Assembly (NCBI RefSeq): GCF_009908165.1
Contig: NZ_JAAAUC010000003.1
Span: forward strand, 310,001-374,000
From: Frigidibacter albus
Lineage (GTDB): Bacteria; Pseudomonadota; Alphaproteobacteria; Rhodobacterales; Rhodobacteraceae
Reading direction: 5' to 3'
DNA: 64,000 nt
Shown here in pieces: positions 38,405-45,864 of the stretch; within the stretch, counting starts at the first letter, position 1, and each line of letters begins with the position of its first letter. A program made the translations under genes and the position numbers. The notes below the pieces were generated by a model. It had not been told where the DNA came from. It made no database searches and was given only the letters and a program-made list of their open reading frames with translations.

Positions 38405-38418
38405 TTGTGCCAGCGCAA
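38405..38418 (+). promoter_or_regulatory. Crp/Fnr-type palindrome (copy 1) before DUF1858
   Basis: TTGTGCCAGCGCAA differs at one position from the perfect palindrome. Centre is about 70 bases before the DUF1858 start, so a class II site would give a leader of about 28 bases. Confidence 0.6.
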
Positions 38419-38480
38419 CGACGCAGGGGCCGTGCGCGGCGAGGCTGCGGCACGGCCCAGCCGGCCGAGGCGGAGGCACC

Positions 38481-38708
38481 ATGCGCGGCCCGAGGTTAGA
38501 CGATCCAGACCTGCCGCTGCGGTTGCTGTTCGACCGCTGGCCCGAGGTGGCGGCGGTATTCCGGGCGCAGCGGATGCTGTGCTTCGGCTGCCCGATCGCG
38601 CCGTTTCACACGGTGATCGACGCCTGCGCCGAATACGCGCTGGACGAGGCCGCCTTCCGAGCCGCGCTGGCGGCCGCGGTGGCGCAGGGCGGGCGCCTTC
38701 TTGCCTGA
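38481..38708 (+). CDS. DUF1858 domain small protein
   Basis: A 75-residue protein of the DUF1858 type (ScdA_N-like fold): DLPLRLLFDRWPEVAAVF at the start, then CFGCPIAPFHTVIDACAEY with two clustered cysteines (about residues 33-36). DUF1858 domains often accompany hybrid-cluster, nitrite/NO or [Fe-S] repair proteins; the exact role is unknown. Placement in a nitrogen-oxide cluster behind an Fnr-type box suggests a part in NO/nitrite metabolism. Its 3' end overlaps antisense the tail of the frameshifted regulator. Confidence 0.8.
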   Translation: MRGPRLDDPDLPLRLLFDRWPEVAAVFRAQRMLCFGCPIAPFHTVIDACAEYALDEAAFRAALAAAVAQGGRLLA

Positions 38709-39425
38709 ACCATCGGATCGCCGGCGTCCGGGCCGGGTCCTGCCCGGCTCATCACCACAAGGCGGTGCGGGTCCGTGACGACCACGAGGCAGCGGGTGCT
38801 TCTTACCACGCCGCCCCGTTCCCAAAGGCTCAGCACCCGGCTGACGGTGTGCAATGTGGTGCCGGTCATGTCGGCGACGTTCTGGCGGCTGATCGGAAAG
38901 CCGATCTCGATGCCATCCACGACCTTTCGCCCCGACTGGGTGATCATCCGAAGCAGGGCACAGGCGATGCGCTGCTCCACCTGCTTGGTCGACAGCTCGA
39001 CGATGGTTGCTCATCTCATCGGCCCGGGCGCCGAAGGCCCGGAAGATTTCAGCGGCAAACCCGTCATAGGCATTGCAGAACCCCGGCCAGAGGGCATTGG
39101 GCCAGGAGAGGACACGGCAGCCACCGGCGGCAATCGCCGATGCGTGATGCCTGTCCTGCCCAAGCGCGGCCGCGATGCCGAACACCTGACCGGCCTGGAT
39201 GTGCAGCACGATGATCTGGTCACCTTCGGCCGTCAACCTGACGAGACGGATGTTGCCCGACATCAGCAGATGGAAGCGCCGGGCAGGCTCCCCCTCGTCA
39301 AAGACCGCGGCGCCGCCAGCCAGGTGCCGCGATCCGGACAGGGCAAGGATCTCGCTCAATTGTCGCGGATCGAGGCGGCGGAACGGGGGCATTGCGCCAA
39401 GCTGGTTGATGTCGGGCCTGATCAT
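38606..39425 (-). pseudogene. Crp/Fnr-family regulator disrupted by a frameshift
   Basis: The N-terminal cyclic-nucleotide-type sensor domain reads in one frame from 39425 (FRRLDPRQLSEILALSGSRH...RADEMSN). The dimer helix and HTH read in another (IVELSTKQVEQRIACALLR...DMTGTTLHTVSRVLSLWERGG). Comparison with the intact paralogue at 41.1-41.8 kb puts the break near 39005: two bases lost, or one gained, between SN and IVEL. After the HTH the frame runs on past the usual end, into sequence antisense to the DUF1858 gene. As written it cannot make a DNA-binding protein. Confidence 0.85.
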
Positions 39426-39439
39426 GGACTGTCCAGAGG

Positions 39440-39453
39440 TTGAGCCAGCACAA
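39440..39453. promoter_or_regulatory. Crp/Fnr-type palindrome (copy 2) before nnrS
   Basis: TTGAGCCAGCACAA, with CCTAGG 17 bases downstream on the plus strand. It is too close to the disrupted regulator's start (14 bases) to activate that gene, so nnrS is the likelier target. Confidence 0.6.
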
Positions 39454-39588
39454 CGACGCTGACGCTCATCCTAGGCGACCGTCCGGCCAAGGTGCTGACG
39501 CAGATCAGGGGCCGGGACGTTTCCAGTCCCGCTCATGCCCCGGACAGCGTGCGCCGCCTCCACCGCGACACAGGACAGGTTCAGCACC

Positions 39589-40764
39589 ATGCACACCCCC
39601 ACCCGACCCACCTATGCCGGCCCCGCCTTGTTCAGCTATGGGTTTCGGCCGCTGTTTCTGGCCGCGGGTCTCTTCGCGGCCCTGATCGTGCCACTGTGGA
39701 TGATGGTGTGGTCGGGGCAGGTGGCACTGTCCGGTCCGTTCAGTCCGCTGGACTGGCATATCCATGAGATGCTGTTCGGCTACACCTCTGCCGTGATCGC
39801 GGGATTCCTGTTCACCGCGATCCCGAACTGGACCGGGCGGATGCCGACACGGGGGCAGCCGCTGATCGCGCTGGCGGTGCTGTGGATCGCCGGGCGGCTG
39901 GCGGTGGCCTTCGCGCCCTGGCCGCTGCTGGTGATGGCCGTCGATTGCGCCTTCCTTCTGGCCATCGGCGTCATGGTGGTGACGGAAATCGTGGCGGGGC
40001 GGAACTGGCGCAACCTGATGGTGGTGCTGCCGGTGCTGGCGTATCTGGCCGCCAACATCGCCTTCCATCTGGAGGCGATGGGGCAGGGCAGCGCCGAGAT
40101 CGGCCGCCGCCTGGGCTTTGCGATGGTGACGCTGCTGATCGCGCTGATCGGCGGGCGGATCATCCCCAGTTTCACCCGCAACTGGCTGGCCAAGCGGGGG
40201 CCGGGCCCGATGCCGGTGCCGTTCGGGCGCTTCGATGCGCTGTGCCTTGCGGGCACGCTGGCGGCGCTGCTGACTTGGGTGGCGGCGCCGGACACGGCGT
40301 TGGCCGGGGCGGGTCTGCTCGCGGCCGGCGCTTTGCAGGCGGGGCGGCTGGCACGGTGGCGGGGCATTCGGGTCTGGCGCTCGCCGCTGCTGGCGATGCT
40401 ACATCTGGCCTTTGCCTTCATCCCCGCGGGGCTGGCCGCGCTGGGGCTGGCGGCACTGGGGGTCTGGCCGGCGGTGACGGGGCTGCACCTTCTGGGCATT
40501 GGCGGCATTGGCGGGATGACGCTGGCGGTGATGATCCGCGCCTCGCTGGGCCACACTGCGCGCGAGCTGGTGGCGGGGCGGGCGCTGACGCTGGGGTTTG
40601 CCTGCGTGGCACTGGCGGCGCTGGTCCGGGTCGCGGTGCCCTCGGGCGCGGGGCTGTGGGGGGCGGCAGGGCTGTGGGTGGTGGGGTTTGGCCTGTTCCT
40701 GTGGCGGTTCGCGCCGATCCTGACGCAGCCCAACCCGGCGCGGCGGGTGCCGGGCGGGCGTTAG
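39589..40764 (+). CDS. nnrS: NnrS family heme/copper membrane protein
   Basis: A 391-residue protein with about 12 membrane helices. The family features are clear: N-terminal LFSYGFRPLFLAAGLFA, the histidines of DWHIHEMLFGYTSAVIAGF (about residues 48-66) and IGGRIIPSFTRNWLA (about 183). NnrS proteins protect against nitrosative stress, preventing NO-derived dinitrosyl iron complexes, and are co-regulated with nitrite and NO reductases. Start at MHTPTRP. An Fnr-type box lies 136 bases upstream. Confidence 0.93.
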   Translation: MHTPTRPTYAGPALFSYGFRPLFLAAGLFAALIVPLWMMVWSGQVALSGPFSPLDWHIHEMLFGYTSAVIAGFLFTAIPNWTGRMPTRGQPLIALAVLWIAGRLAVAFAPWPLLVMAVDCAFLLAIGVMVVTEIVAGRNWRNLMVVLPVLAYLAANIAFHLEAMGQGSAEIGRRLGFAMVTLLIALIGGRIIPSFTRNWLAKRGPGPMPVPFGRFDALCLAGTLAALLTWVAAPDTALAGAGLLAAGALQAGRLARWRGIRVWRSPLLAMLHLAFAFIPAGLAALGLAALGVWPAVTGLHLLGIGGIGGMTLAVMIRASLGHTARELVAGRALTLGFACVALAALVRVAVPSGAGLWGAAGLWVVGFGLFLWRFAPILTQPNPARRVPGGR

Positions 40765-40820
40765 GGCGTTGCACCCGCGCACGGCGCCCCTAGAGTGAGG
40801 ACAGGAAAGTGAGGCAGGGC

Positions 40821-41087
40821 ATGGGCGCGATCAGCTTTGAGGACGGCCGGATCGAGGTCGATGCGGCGCTCGTCGCCAAGGCCCTGCAGATGGAGCCCGA
40901 GGCGCTGCGCGCCGCCCTGCGCAGCGGCGCGGTCACCAGCCAATGCGAGACGGGCATGGACGAGGACGCCGGGCGCTTCCGGCTGACCTTCTTTTCCGCC
41001 ACCCGCCGGCTGAGGCTGACCGTGGGGGCCAACGGCGAGGTGCTGCAGACCTCCAGCGCCGATTACCGCCGCAAGCCCGGAGGGTGA
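40821..41087 (+). CDS. DUF6522 family protein
   Basis: An 88-residue cytosolic protein: ISFEDGRIEVDAALVAKALQ at the start, a central CETGMDEDAGRFRLTFF strand pair and a C-terminal basic end. It matches a small family (DUF6522) commonly found next to denitrification regulators or NnrS. Function unknown. It ends exactly where the convergent Crp/Fnr gene stops. Confidence 0.7.
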   Translation: MGAISFEDGRIEVDAALVAKALQMEPEALRAALRSGAVTSQCETGMDEDAGRFRLTFFSATRRLRLTVGANGEVLQTSSADYRRKPGG

Positions 41088-41783
41088 TCAGCCCTCGGCG
41101 CCGCTGAGCAGCACCAGCCGGTGCGGCGCGGTCACGGTGATCTTGCGGCGCTCGGACACCACGATCCCGTCCCGCTCCCACGCGCTCAGCAGCCGGCTGA
41201 CGGTGTGCAGCGTGGTACCGGTCATGTCGGAAATGTTCTGCCGGGTGATCGGGATGCCGATCTCGATCCCGCCCTCGACCTTGCGGCCCATCTGGGTGAC
41301 GAGACGCAGGATGGCATTGGCGATGCGCTGTTCCACCTGTTGCGTCGCCAGTTCCACGATCCGGTTGTTCATCTCGCCGACGCGGGCGCCTACCACCTTG
41401 TAGGTTTCGGTGGCAAAGCCGTCATGCCGCGCGGTGAACTCGGCCCACAGGCGGTTGGGCCAGGCCAGCACCACACACTCATCGGCCGTCATCGCGGTCG
41501 CCGGATAGGCGGTATGGCCAAGCGCCGCGCCGATGCCGAACAGCTGCCCCGGCGCGATATGCAGGGCGATGATCTGGTCCCCGGCCGCCGTGGTGCGGAT
41601 CACCCGGATATGCCCGTCGAGCAGCAGGAAAAACCGCTCCACCGGCATTCCTTCCGCAAAGACCGGCACCCCGGCATCGAAGCGCAGCGCCTGCGCGGCA
41701 TCCAGGATCTCGCGGATCTGCGGGCGGGCCAGCTTGCGGAACGGCGGCAGGCCGGTCAGCAGGCTTTCGTCGAGTTTGTGCAA
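41088..41783 (-). CDS. Crp/Fnr-family regulator (Dnr/NnrR-like), intact
   Basis: A 232-residue regulator. It has a double-stranded beta-helix sensor (about 10-115), dimer helix and C-terminal HTH (ITRQNISDMTGTTLHTVSRL). The N-terminal Fnr cysteines that bind [4Fe-4S] are absent, so it is a Dnr/NnrR-type NO or nitrite sensor rather than an oxygen-labile Fnr. The recognition helix reads HTVSR instead of the Fnr ETVSR/ETISR, which fits the non-standard palindromes nearby. A TTG start at 41781-41783 is chosen because GGAGG lies six bases upstream; ATG 41810 would place the palindrome inside the gene. Confidence 0.9.
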   Translation of the reverse strand: MHKLDESLLTGLPPFRKLARPQIREILDAAQALRFDAGVPVFAEGMPVERFFLLLDGHIRVIRTTAAGDQIIALHIAPGQLFGIGAALGHTAYPATAMTADECVVLAWPNRLWAEFTARHDGFATETYKVVGARVGEMNNRIVELATQQVEQRIANAILRLVTQMGRKVEGGIEIGIPITRQNISDMTGTTLHTVSRLLSAWERDGIVVSERRKITVTAPHRLVLLSGAEG

Positions 41784-41798
41784 ACGCAGCCTCCGAGG

Positions 41799-41812
41799 TT
41801 GTGGCAGCACAA
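41799..41812. promoter_or_regulatory. Crp/Fnr-type palindrome (copy 3), pseudoazurin/regulator
   Basis: TTGTGGCAGCACAA. On the plus strand CCTAGA follows 21 bases later (-10-like TAGAAC at 41835-41840), the class II spacing for the pseudoazurin gene. On the other strand it lies just upstream of the regulator's ribosome site, so binding would also repress the regulator. Confidence 0.7.
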
Positions 41813-41880
41813 CGAGCCGCGCGCGACCTTAGCCTAGAACCGGGGCAACACCAATCTGCCATCCCCGGAAAGGACGCACC

Positions 41881-42327
41881 ATGTTCCCGAACCTGATCCC
41901 CGCCACGCTCGCCGCCAGCCTTGCCGCGCTGCTGTTGGCCCCGGTTGCCCATGCCGCCAATGTCGATGTGCTGATGCTGAACAAGGGCACCGAGGGCGCT
42001 ATGGTGTTCGAGCCGGCCTTCGTGAAGGTCGATGTGGGCGATACCGTCACCTTCATCTCGACCGACAAGGGCCACAATGTCGAGAACATCAAGGACATGC
42101 TGCCCGAGGGGGTGGAGGCGTTCAAGAGCAAGGTCGGGGCGGATTACGTGCTGACCGTGACGGCCGAGGGCCTCTATGGCGTGAAATGCACCCCGCACTA
42201 CACAATGGGCATGGTCGCGCTGATCCAGGCTGGCGCGCCGGTCAACCTGGAAGCGGCCGCCGCCGTGTCCCAGAAGGGCAAGGCCAAGACCCGGTTCGAG
42301 CCGCTGTTCGCGCAGGTTGCCGAGTAA
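41881..42327 (+). CDS. Pseudoazurin (type 1 copper protein)
   Basis: A 148-residue periplasmic blue-copper electron carrier, the usual donor to copper nitrite reductase. The signal peptide is cleaved after VAHA (residue about 25). The four copper ligands are present: His65 (DKGHNVEN), Cys103 and His106 ([11 protein letters not shown]) and Met111, with the C78-H81-M86-like spacing of the family. An Fnr-type box upstream and a terminator downstream make it a single-gene unit tied to the nirK regulon. Confidence 0.94.
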
Positions 42328-42339
42328 CACCGGCTCAGG

Positions 42340-42364
42340 GCGCCCCCTTGTCAGGGGGCGCTTC
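42340..42364 (+). terminator. Terminator after pseudoazurin
   Basis: GCGCCCCC (42340-42347) pairs with GGGGGCGC (42354-42361) with a six-base loop; only a weak T-rich tail follows. Convergent with the glyoxalase gene, so possibly bidirectional. Confidence 0.65.
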
Positions 42365-42381
42365 CGCTTGCGGTAGGCGCG

Positions 42382-42909
42382 TCAGTCCTGCTGGCAAAAG
42401 CGGATGCGGTTGCCGAACGGGTCATACACCTGCATCTGCAGCCCCCAGGGCAAGGGCTCCAATCCCGGGCGGCCATAGGGATACTGCTTCTCGGCCAGTT
42501 CCTTGTGGAAGGCCCGGATATTGGCGGTCTGCACGAAGATATTGGACCCCGGGCTGGCATCGCCGTGATGTTCCGACAGATGCAGCGACAGGCCCGCGCG
42601 CTCAATGCCGAGATAGAGCGGCAGCTGCGGCTCGAACCGATGCTCGAAGGTGACGGTGAAGCCAAGGAAACCGCAGTAGAACTCCCGCGCCTTGGCCTCG
42701 TCGAAGATCCGCAGGATCGGGCTGGTCCGGGTAAAGCGGGGGCCTTCGGCGCCTTGCCCCAGAGCGGAGACTGCGGTGTTCCAGTCGGCATAGCCAAGCG
42801 ACTTGGACACCAGCTCCAGCGCCTTGGAATGCGTCACCTCGGTGCCCTCGAGCGCAAGGGCGGCGCGCAGTTGGCGCGCCATGGATTTGGCGGTGTCGGG
42901 ATCGGTCAT
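42382..42909 (-). CDS. Glyoxalase-superfamily (VOC) protein, bleomycin-resistance-like
   Basis: A 175-residue protein. A helical N-terminal segment (AKSMARQLRAALALEGTEVTHS, shown in part by ALALEGTEV) is followed by a VOC beta-alpha-beta domain from about residue 55 (SPILRIFDEAKAREFYCGFLG ... DPFGNRIRFCQ). This N-terminal extension defines a glyoxalase-related subgroup of unknown substrate. Start at MTDPDTAKS behind GAGGAT; the earlier in-frame start has no support. Confidence 0.85.
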   Translation of the reverse strand: MTDPDTAKSMARQLRAALALEGTEVTHSKALELVSKSLGYADWNTAVSALGQGAEGPRFTRTSPILRIFDEAKAREFYCGFLGFTVTFEHRFEPQLPLYLGIERAGLSLHLSEHHGDASPGSNIFVQTANIRAFHKELAEKQYPYGRPGLEPLPWGLQMQVYDPFGNRIRFCQQD

Positions 42910-43087
42910 CACATCCTCCTGCCAGCGCACGGGATCGGGGCTCGCATTGCCGACGAAGCACTGGACGGGAAGGGTGCATCGGATCGTCCAAGGTGCTTTC
43001 ACCAGACCCCAAGGGGCGCGAGCGGCTGGCAGCACAGGCCGTGGGTATCTGGGACATGATCCGGGCGACAGTCAAGCCAGCGCGCAG

Positions 43088-43708
43088 CTAGCGTTCGTTT
43101 GCGCCCTTGCCTGCCATGATCTTGGGCCTTGCGCGCGCGATCCGCGCAACCCGCGTGGCGGAGGTCCTGGCCGAGGCGAGGTGGATCACATAGCTGGTCT
43201 GCCGCCCGGGGGTGAGGGCGTGGAAGGCCTCGGCCAGATCGGGGTCGGCGTCCATGGCCAGGGTCAGCTCCTCCGGCAACTCGCGGGCGGTGTCGTCCTT
43301 CGGCGGCTTCACCCCCGCCTCGGCATAGCCCATCGCCTCGGTCAGGTAGGCGGCGATCACGCGCGCCTTGTCGGCCACCTGCTCATTCTCCGTGAAGCGG
43401 ATCATGTCGGCGTGGCGGGTGTTCGGTCCCTGCCGTTCCAGCACCCCCTCCGGGTCCTTCATCAGCGCCGCATTGAAGAAGCTCAGGCGGAAATCCCCCC
43501 GAAAAGCACCAATGATGGCGATGTTGCGCGCCGAATGGGTGTAGCAGGGGTGGCCCCATTTCACCGTCTCGGTCAGTCCGGCGGCAAGGCACAGCGTGCG
43601 CAGCTCCGTCAGACCGCGCTGCCATGCACGGACCGAGCAGTCGGCCGTGGCGAAGCGGTCGCAGCGGCCGCAGCCCTTGGTGAAGAAATCCTCGATCTCG
43701 GTGATCAT
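43088..43708 (-). CDS. YdeI/OmpD-associated family protein
   Basis: A 206-residue protein with a DUF1801/YdeI-like fold: LRTLCLAAGLTETVKWGHPCY and AFRGDFRLSFFNAALMKDP in the first half, then a C-terminal YdeI helix bundle (FHALTPGRQTSYVIHLASAR). Function is not established; E. coli relatives are stress-linked. Two Cys pairs at the N-terminus (CGRCDRFATADC) are unusual. Start at ATG 43708; a GTG at 43732 is possible. Confidence 0.8.
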   Translation of the reverse strand: MITEIEDFFTKGCGRCDRFATADCSVRAWQRGLTELRTLCLAAGLTETVKWGHPCYTHSARNIAIIGAFRGDFRLSFFNAALMKDPEGVLERQGPNTRHADMIRFTENEQVADKARVIAAYLTEAMGYAEAGVKPPKDDTARELPEELTLAMDADPDLAEAFHALTPGRQTSYVIHLASARTSATRVARIARARPKIMAGKGANER

Positions 43709-43768
43709 CGGCCTCGGTCTCGCAGGGGACACCCTCTATCCTACCGCGGGGCGGCCCATCCGCCAACC

Positions 43769-44572
43769 TCAGCCCGCGTCCCGCACCAGCCGGAAGCCAA
43801 GATAGTCCGGCGGCACGCCCGCGGCGCAGCCGCCGACGCGGGCGTCGCGGATGAAGTCGATCACGAAGGCCCGGTGCTTGCCCTGCACCGACCGCACGCC
43901 GCAATAGTCGGCGCGGGTGGCGATGGCGGTGCCGTCCGGCGTCAGGGTGCCGTTCTGGAAGCAGGTCTCGGTCCATTCCCAGACATTGCCGGCGATGTCG
44001 GCGACGCCGCGGTCATTGACCCCGAAATGCCCCTGTGGGTGCAGGGCAAGGTCTGCCTCGCCGCGCAGCTCCACCTCGCGCAGGTAATTGGCGATCCAGC
44101 GGCGCGAGGGGTCGGCGCCGTTGGCATCCTCGGCGAAGCCGTCGTCGAAACCCCGTTCGCCCGCCGCGCGCAGCCATTCGGCATCGGTCGGCAGCCGCCA
44201 GGTCGCGCCGGTCCGGGCCGAGAGCCAGGCAGCATAGGCGGTGGCATCGGCATGGTTGATATTGGTTTGCGGCATCCCGGGCCGGCCGGTGACCGGCAGC
44301 GGCGGGCAGCCACGGTCCGCCACGCAGCGGGCATACTCCGCCTCGCTCACATGGAATTTCATCACCTCCAGTGCCGGGGCCTCCACCCGCTCCATCGGCG
44401 CATCGACCATCCTTGTGCCTTGCCGGAACTCGCCCGCCGGGCGGTAATCCTGCGGGCCGGCGGCGATGTGGACGGTTTCGGGCGCCTCCACCCCGGGCGC
44501 AAGGCGCAAGGCTGTCACCCCGGCAATCACGGCGAGGGCGAGCAGCAGGGCAAGCGCGGCGGGGGTTGTCAT
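43769..44572 (-). CDS. nirV: NirV-like formylglycine-generating-enzyme (SUMF1) family protein
   Basis: A 267-residue protein with an N-terminal membrane anchor/signal (about residues 2-24) and an FGE-sulfatase fold: NINHADATAYAAWLSARTG, WRLPTDAEWLRAA, DIAGNVWEWTETCF and a final LGFRLVRDAG. It sits 63 bases downstream of nirK on the same strand, the classic nirK-nirV arrangement of denitrifiers such as Rhodobacter sphaeroides 2.4.3. The biochemical role of NirV is unresolved; copper-site maturation has been suggested. Confidence 0.9.
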   Translation of the reverse strand: MTTPAALALLLALAVIAGVTALRLAPGVEAPETVHIAAGPQDYRPAGEFRQGTRMVDAPMERVEAPALEVMKFHVSEAEYARCVADRGCPPLPVTGRPGMPQTNINHADATAYAAWLSARTGATWRLPTDAEWLRAAGERGFDDGFAEDANGADPSRRWIANYLREVELRGEADLALHPQGHFGVNDRGVADIAGNVWEWTETCFQNGTLTPDGTAIATRADYCGVRSVQGKHRAFVIDFIRDARVGGCAAGVPPDYLGFRLVRDAG

Positions 44573-44635
44573 GGTGGGCTCCTGAAAACGGCAAGGGCGG
44601 CCCCGGGGTTCCGGTGCCGCCCAATCCACGCGAGG

Positions 44636-45784
44636 TCACGGTAGCGCGGTGCGCCCTTCGTGCAGCACGTCATATTCGACCGGGGCCACCACCTGTTCCA
44701 TCAGGTCGTTGTTCCAGTCGCCGCCGACGATCACATGCGCCGTTGCGCCAAGGTTCACCGCCTCGATCAGGTTGTGGTTGACGTAGGCATAGACGCCCGG
44801 CTGCAGGAAGGTGTAGAGCGCCGCCCCGGCAGAGCCGCCGCGGATGAACCAGGTTTCCAGATCGCGTTCCGGCAGGTTGTTGAACTTGCCGCTTTCCCAG
44901 ACCAGATCGCCATGCCCGCCGATCAGGTGCGGGCGGCTGTCGCGGTTGGCCTGGCTGTGGACGAACAGCACCGTCTCGCCCTGCTCGGCGACCAGCGCGC
45001 CGGTGCCGGTCAGCGCGCCGACGCGGCCATTGAACACCACATGCGAGGGGATCAGCCTGTTCATCACCTCCAGCATGTCGGAATAGCCCTCGCCGGCATC
45101 GGCGAAGCGCATGTAGTCGCCATCAGGGCCGCGCGGGAGGTAGAAGTCGTTCTCGCCGATATGGTAGATCCGGTCATAGGAGACCGGCTTGCCCAGATGG
45201 TCCTTCAGCCCGTCCCGCGGCAGCACCATGATGGCGCCCGACATGCCCGACACGACGTGCCACGGGATCATCGGCCCCCCCGGCGCGCAGTGATAGACGA
45301 ACACGCCCGGCCGCGTGGCCTTGAAGCGCAGCACCGCCTTTTCGCCGGGGTTCACCAGCGTCAGCGACCCGCCGCCAAGCGCGCCGGTGGCGGCGTGGAA
45401 GTCGATATTGTGCTGCATCATGTTTTCGGGCGGGTTGAACAGCGTCAGTTCGACATAGTCGCCCTCATGCACCACCATCATCGGGCCGGGGACGGAGCCG
45501 TTGAAGGTCATCGCCTGGATCCAGGCGTCTTCATCGACCTGCATCTCCTTCTCGATGATCTTCATCTCGAACTCGATGATCGCGGGGCCGGTCGTTGCCA
45601 CCTGTTCATGTTCATGCACGAAGGGCGGGGCCAGCAGCTTGACCTTGCGGCGGGGAAGCGAGGACAGATCGACCGGCGCTGCGCCGGAGGTGTCCATCAC
45701 CTCCTCGGCACTGGCGGACGTGATCAGGTAGGGCGAGGCGGCAACAAGGGCAGCCCCCATGAGTGCGGCGCGTCGGGTGAACAT
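44636..45784 (-). CDS. nirK: Copper-containing nitrite reductase
   Basis: A 382-residue periplasmic enzyme reducing nitrite to NO with electrons from pseudoazurin. The Tat-like signal peptide (TRRAALMG, cleaved after ASA near residue 26) is followed by two cupredoxin domains. Type 1 copper ligands His125, Cys166, His176 and Met181, type 2 ligands His130 and His165, catalytic Asp128 and the distal LIGGHGD histidine are all present (precursor numbering). An Fnr-type palindrome lies 66 bases upstream. It is followed by nirV. No norCB is in the window, so NO removal must be encoded elsewhere. Confidence 0.96.
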
Positions 45785-45850
45785 CGGGTTTCTCCTTCGG
45801 GAACCTGTCGGTTTCAGCCATCGGTCTAGGCTGGCGCGAAGGAGGGCTCG

Positions 45851-45864
45851 TTGTGCTGGCACAA
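45851..45864 (-). promoter_or_regulatory. Crp/Fnr-type palindrome (copy 4), nirK promoter
   Basis: On the minus strand this reads TTGTGCCAGCACAA, a perfect palindrome. CCTAGACC follows 21 bases later (a -10-like TAGACC), the same spacing as for pseudoazurin. Confidence 0.8.

Follow-up and report, generated by a model that had tools for sequence, protein, structure and literature searches.

The 64,000-nucleotide stretch of Frigidibacter albus DNA analysed here ('the window') contains a gene cluster that is, with high confidence, an NnrR regulon belonging to a Frigidibacter-like organism of the Rhodobacterales; its NnrR is the Crp/Fnr-type regulator encoded at 41088-41783. The four palindromic boxes of the cluster are real and of a known kind, namely predicted NnrR sites, the cluster being a further instance of a regulon already described and not a new system.

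Genes and boxes of the cluster

On the plus strand, a gene at 38481..38708 encodes a DUF1858 protein with a hybrid-cluster-protein-associated redox disulfide domain (TIGR03980, 56.8 bits against a cut-off of 44.95; start codon set by comparison with relatives). Next come nnrS (39589..40764, plus strand; Pfam NnrS, 370 bits; ATG 39589 being the chosen start) and, on the same strand, a gene for a DUF6522 protein (40809..41087). The intact regulator gene, nnrR (41088..41783), lies on the minus strand and is followed by a plus-strand pseudoazurin gene (41881..42327; TIGR02375, 170.5 bits). Farther on, the minus strand carries nirK, encoding a copper nitrite reductase (44636..45784; TIGR02376, 514 bits; ATG 45784 being the chosen start), and after it a gene identified by profile search as encoding an FGE-sulfatase domain protein (43769..44629), which we presume to be nirV-like.

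A motif search of the window recovered all four 14-bp palindromes of the initial annotation, which had called them near-identical and the nirK one perfect; that box is indeed exact, and the other three carry one mismatch each. The predicted NnrR box TTGTGCCAGCGCAA (38405..38418, plus strand; weight-matrix score 25.6) precedes the DUF1858 gene, with its centre 69.5 bp 5' of the ATG at 38481. The box TTGAGCCAGCACAA (39440..39453, plus strand; score 21.5) lies between nnrS and a second NnrR-like gene copy, nnrR2, whereas TTGTGGCAGCACAA (41799..41812, plus strand; score 23.8) precedes the pseudoazurin gene and TTGTGCTGGCACAA (45851..45864, minus strand, where it reads TTGTGCCAGCACAA; score 24.3) precedes nirK. 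A weaker box-like match at 41776 (score 14.9) overlaps the nnrR start codon.

Conservation in relatives

Scanning with the regulator found 93 related loci, mostly from Rhodobacterales and with a Frigidibacter record as the nearest (98%), and the best 80 were used. Among these 80, the DUF1858 gene is present in 75; in 65 it immediately follows a regulator copy and is convergent with it. Pseudoazurin occurs in 74 loci, in 69 of which it is oriented divergently to a regulator copy, and nnrS, nirV-like and nirK genes are found in 61, 59 and 45, respectively.

The boxes recur in front of these genes. Weight-matrix sites (score at least 12) occur upstream of the DUF1858 gene in 71 of 74 relatives (shuffles 1/370), of pseudoazurin in 47 of 72 (1/360), of nirK in 21 of 39 (0/195), of nnrS in only 10 of 61 (0/305) and of the nirV-like gene in none of 43 (0/215); these counts are descriptive, the matrix having been trained on the same loci and the relatives being non-independent, and, like the other upstream counts, they omit stretches running off the locus and partial regulator matches. 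The exact pattern TTGNG-N4-CNCAA was found upstream of DUF1858 in 50/74 (0.7 in shuffles), pseudoazurin in 25/72 (0.35), nirK in 9/39 (0.25), nnrS in 7/61 (0.15) and the regulator gene itself in 25/83 (0.8); it was absent upstream of the nirV-like (0/43) and DUF6522 (0/10) genes. The earlier proposal of a single nitrogen-oxide regulon under the control of the local Crp/Fnr protein is supported by the comparisons, with the nnrS site as the weakest of the four cases given its low count in relatives and the lack of a -10 element at the expected spacing (see below). The proposal that the regulon takes in proteins of unknown function is supported for the DUF1858 protein by the frequency of its site.

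Three of the loci deserve separate mention. L107, labelled Enemella evansiae (Actinomycetota), has a Rhodobacterales-type nnrR-pseudoazurin-nnrS cluster, and its assembly is probably contaminated or mislabelled. Salipiger mucosus (L059, L060) carries the regulator twice, as identical copies on separate scaffolds. In Marivita lacus (L035, Roseobacteraceae), both regulator copies group with Tabrizicola-type regulators in the tree, which suggests transfer of the whole cluster.

The second regulator copy

The copy nnrR2 (38741-39413, minus strand), like the norC site described below, had been missed in the initial annotation. Its frame is broken, with 39003-39413 and 38741-39007 lying in different frames, and the recognition helix LHTVSR is still readable; the break is either biological or an assembly error. 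In a regulator tree built without the NnrR proteins of R. sphaeroides and B. diazoefficiens, nnrR2 groups with the second copies of loci L029, L030, L031 and L035 with support of 100/100. Second copies are open in L029, L030, L035, G001 and G004 (G004 and L029 possibly coming from one organism), and the copy in L031 has one internal stop.

The position of nnrR2 between nnrS and DUF1858, its membership of a supported group of its own (five rows) and the intact copies in relatives favour a reading in which nnrR2 once regulated nnrS and DUF1858, the two copies splitting the regulon. We consider this improbable: the helix is identical in both copies, nnrR2 has a disrupted frame here and an internal stop in L031, and most of the 80 loci retain the DUF1858 site with only one regulator copy.

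Regulator identity and binding specificity

The 41088-41783 protein matches Pfam PF00027 (cNMP-binding) and PF13545 (HTH_Crp), both over cut-off, and falls below the cut-off of every NCBIfam model that it matched, none of the NCBIfam models being named NnrR. It has one cysteine, at position 103, and no FNR-type cysteine cluster. Its helix reads LHTVSR, confirming the HTVSR reported earlier where Fnr has ETVSR/ETISR, and regulator copies in the related loci share it almost throughout (LHTVSR in 82/84, VHTVSR in 1 and LHTASR in 1). A homologue on a Phaeobacter inhibens plasmid, in the same neighbourhood, is 62.5% identical, and homologues on Sinorhizobium meliloti plasmids are 42.8% identical. 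An assignment of this protein to FNR or FnrL was rejected on the grounds of its helix, its lack of the cysteine cluster and the lack of TTGAT-N4-ATCAA boxes in the cluster; by these sequence characters, it fits NnrR.

The half-site had been described as TTGTGC rather than TTGAT. It does differ from that of FNR; more precisely, TTGTGC is the variant of TTGYGC with T at position 4. At position 4 of the half-site, the 14 nearest loci have 38 T to 8 C, versus 44 T to 88 C in the other loci. The predicted matching change of helix and specificity therefore holds between NnrR and FNR and does not hold between TTGTGC and TTGCGC, since T or C varies by clade while LHTVSR stays constant; for the same reason, the helix was rejected as the cause of T versus C at this position.

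A reading in which the local regulator is a bystander and a different Crp/Fnr protein binds the boxes, such as FnrL or the FtrB-like one encoded near nos, is very unlikely. The genome does hold further Crp/Fnr genes, and TTG...CAA is common to FNR-type and NnrR boxes. However, FnrL of the same genome, a separate gene over the NCBIfam cut-off, has the helix LETVSR, with boxes of the TTGAT type in its vicinity, and two TTGAT-N4-ATCAA boxes (L129:11010-11490, G000:C22) lie near nosZ, just before the FtrB-like Crp/Fnr gene, whereas the FNR-type pattern TTGAY-N4-RTCAA occurs in none of 382 upstream stretches of the cluster (those of divergent genes overlapping). Across the full length of the 80 loci, there are 36 occurrences of TTGYGC-N2-GCRCAA, none of its reversed control and one of TTGAT-N4-ATCAA. 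Site number also tracks regulator presence in the genus, albeit in five genomes only: 7, 6 and 8 sites were counted in the three that have the regulator (reversed controls 8, 5 and 5), and 2 and 2 in the two that lack it (controls 6 and 4). A DNR-like identity for the Crp/Fnr gene near nos, suggested by its helix, was rejected because it scores over the FtrB cut-off in NCBIfam. No NnrR box was found within 18 kb around nosZ, and nos seems to lie outside the NnrR regulon.

Number and position of sites

Random frequency of the motif in the genome had been named as one result that would refute the proposal. At up to one mismatch, the whole genome (4.19 Mb, 40 contigs) has 7 sites, which is not frequent, yet the motif is not over-represented either, the reversed control pattern having 8; at up to two mismatches, the counts are 60 sites versus 109 for the control, and the relaxed pattern TTGNGN4CNCAA gives 31 versus 22. 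Site counting as sole evidence was rejected on these figures. With two mismatches allowed, the window itself holds 4 matches where 2.21 are expected, and at least 4 were reached in 19 of 100 shuffles, so that the count by itself is no proof.

Position, rather than number, carries the evidence for the four sites. The 7 genome sites are the 4 in the window, 1 before norCBQD and 2 inside open reading frames, one unnamed (C3:38588) and one for the arsenite oxidase small subunit (C37:15682). The fifth site lies 61 bases before the cytochrome c gene norC, which heads norCBQD on a contig other than that of the window; norC, norB, norQ and norD are 78, 85, 82 and 57% identical, respectively, to those of Phaeobacter inhibens. 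Hits had been expected to collect at nor, nos, nir and cytochrome genes. For nor and nir they do, 5 of the 7 preceding nitrogen-oxide genes, and for nos, with its boxes of the other type, they do not. In the part of the genome that was scored with the weight matrix, the five known sites rank at the top (27.0 to 21.5), and the next match, inside gyrB, scores 19.4. The control rate predicts about 0.0015 sites for the four 200-bp promoter stretches, where 4 were found; furthermore, the pattern is kept in relatives for DUF1858 and pseudoazurin, where loss would have favoured chance. Despite the shuffle and control counts, chance palindromes in a GC-rich genome are thus an extremely improbable explanation.

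Promoter layout and proposed mechanism

The element CCTAGA, reported 21 bases after the site in two promoters, does start at base 21 at pseudoazurin and nirK. A better reading of the conserved -10 hexamer begins at base 23, giving TAGAAC in the pseudoazurin promoter (41835..41840, plus strand) and TAGACC in the nirK promoter (45823..45828, minus strand), each 22 bases downstream of its box. Across 85 distinct sites, in which bases 23-28 after the box form the hexamer, A stands at base 24 in 72 (versus a mean frequency of 0.24 and a maximum of 0.59 for A at other offsets), and T stands at base 28 in 50, mostly DUF1858 ones. A gap of 22 bases between box and -10 element places the box centre near -41.5, the position of a class II activator. 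The norC promoter has TAGACC at this spacing, the DUF1858 promoter of the window has the poor -10 element GAGGCT, and in the nnrS promoter of the window the spacing holds CGACCG, which is no -10 element. Judged by these elements, a class II Crp/Fnr layout is apparent at pseudoazurin, nirK and norC, weak at the DUF1858 gene of the window and absent at nnrS.

From the observed sites, spacing, conservation, helix and neighbourhood, we infer binding, activation and an NO signal as follows. An NnrR dimer would bind TTGYGC-N2-GCRCAA via the helix LHTVSR, in which His replaces the Glu of FNR, and, from boxes 22 bases before the -10 element, would act by class II activation at pseudoazurin, nirK and norC and perhaps more weakly at DUF1858. 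The likely signal is NO made by NirK; the initial annotation had left the choice between NO and nitrite open, and NO is the signal known for the NnrR family. An NO signal would then lead to a joint rise of nitrite reductase, its electron donor, NO reductase, NnrS and the DUF1858 protein.

The box at 41799-41812 is 15 bp away from the start codon of nnrR, and that at 39440-39453 is 14 bp away from the start codon of nnrR2, each regulator gene being divergent from the target. These distances are too short for class II activation of nnrR and nnrR2, and the layout suggests self-repression of the regulator genes rather than self-activation. Tentatively, one bound dimer may activate its target while repressing its own gene, making the NO response self-limiting, and the clade may have duplicated this unit along with nnrS and now be losing the second copy; we regard this as a possibility on the doubtful side.

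Comparison with known systems

The closest published counterpart is the alphaproteobacterial NnrR regulon, including that of Rhodobacter sphaeroides and Bradyrhizobium, which, in the relevant passages of Rodionov 2005 (PMC1274295), shares the box, the targets and a Crp/Fnr regulator without the FNR cysteines. Those passages give the NnrR box as ctTTGcgnnnncgCAAag, list nir, nor and nnrS as targets and report that helix residues 180/181 correlate with box bases. Unlike the regulon described there, the clade of the window has mostly the T form TTGTGC, and the window has an extra, broken regulator copy. Dufour 2010 likewise describes an NnrR helix and motif unlike those of FNR, FixK and DNR, with cross-talk avoided.

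In Bradyrhizobium diazoefficiens, as in the window, a DUF1858 gene lies beside nnrR (adjacent locus tags); it is listed with the motif TTGCGCTCCAACAA and changes -29.2-fold in an nnrR mutant, and FixK2 directly activates nnrR and nnrS, a feature of that system (PMC6710368). Since the box, the link between helix residues and bases, and the membership of DUF1858 in an NnrR regulon are all published, the regulon itself is not new.

The plasmid cluster of Phaeobacter inhibens (strain M635 record) resembles that of the window in having nirK, an LHTVSR regulator, DUF1858, nnrS and two NnrR-like boxes. It also holds norCB (cytochrome c and oxidase-like), norQ- and VWA- (norD) genes, whereas in the genome of the window nor is on another contig. 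An nnrR is named in Phaeobacter inhibens DSM17395 in part of a further report (PMC10356946).

Significance

The cluster offers a clean, genome-supported example of a predicted NnrR regulon, and its promoter layout is usable for annotation. Being present in 75 of 80 related loci and preceded by a site in 71 of 74, the DUF1858 gene is supported as a conserved member of this regulon in Rhodobacterales.
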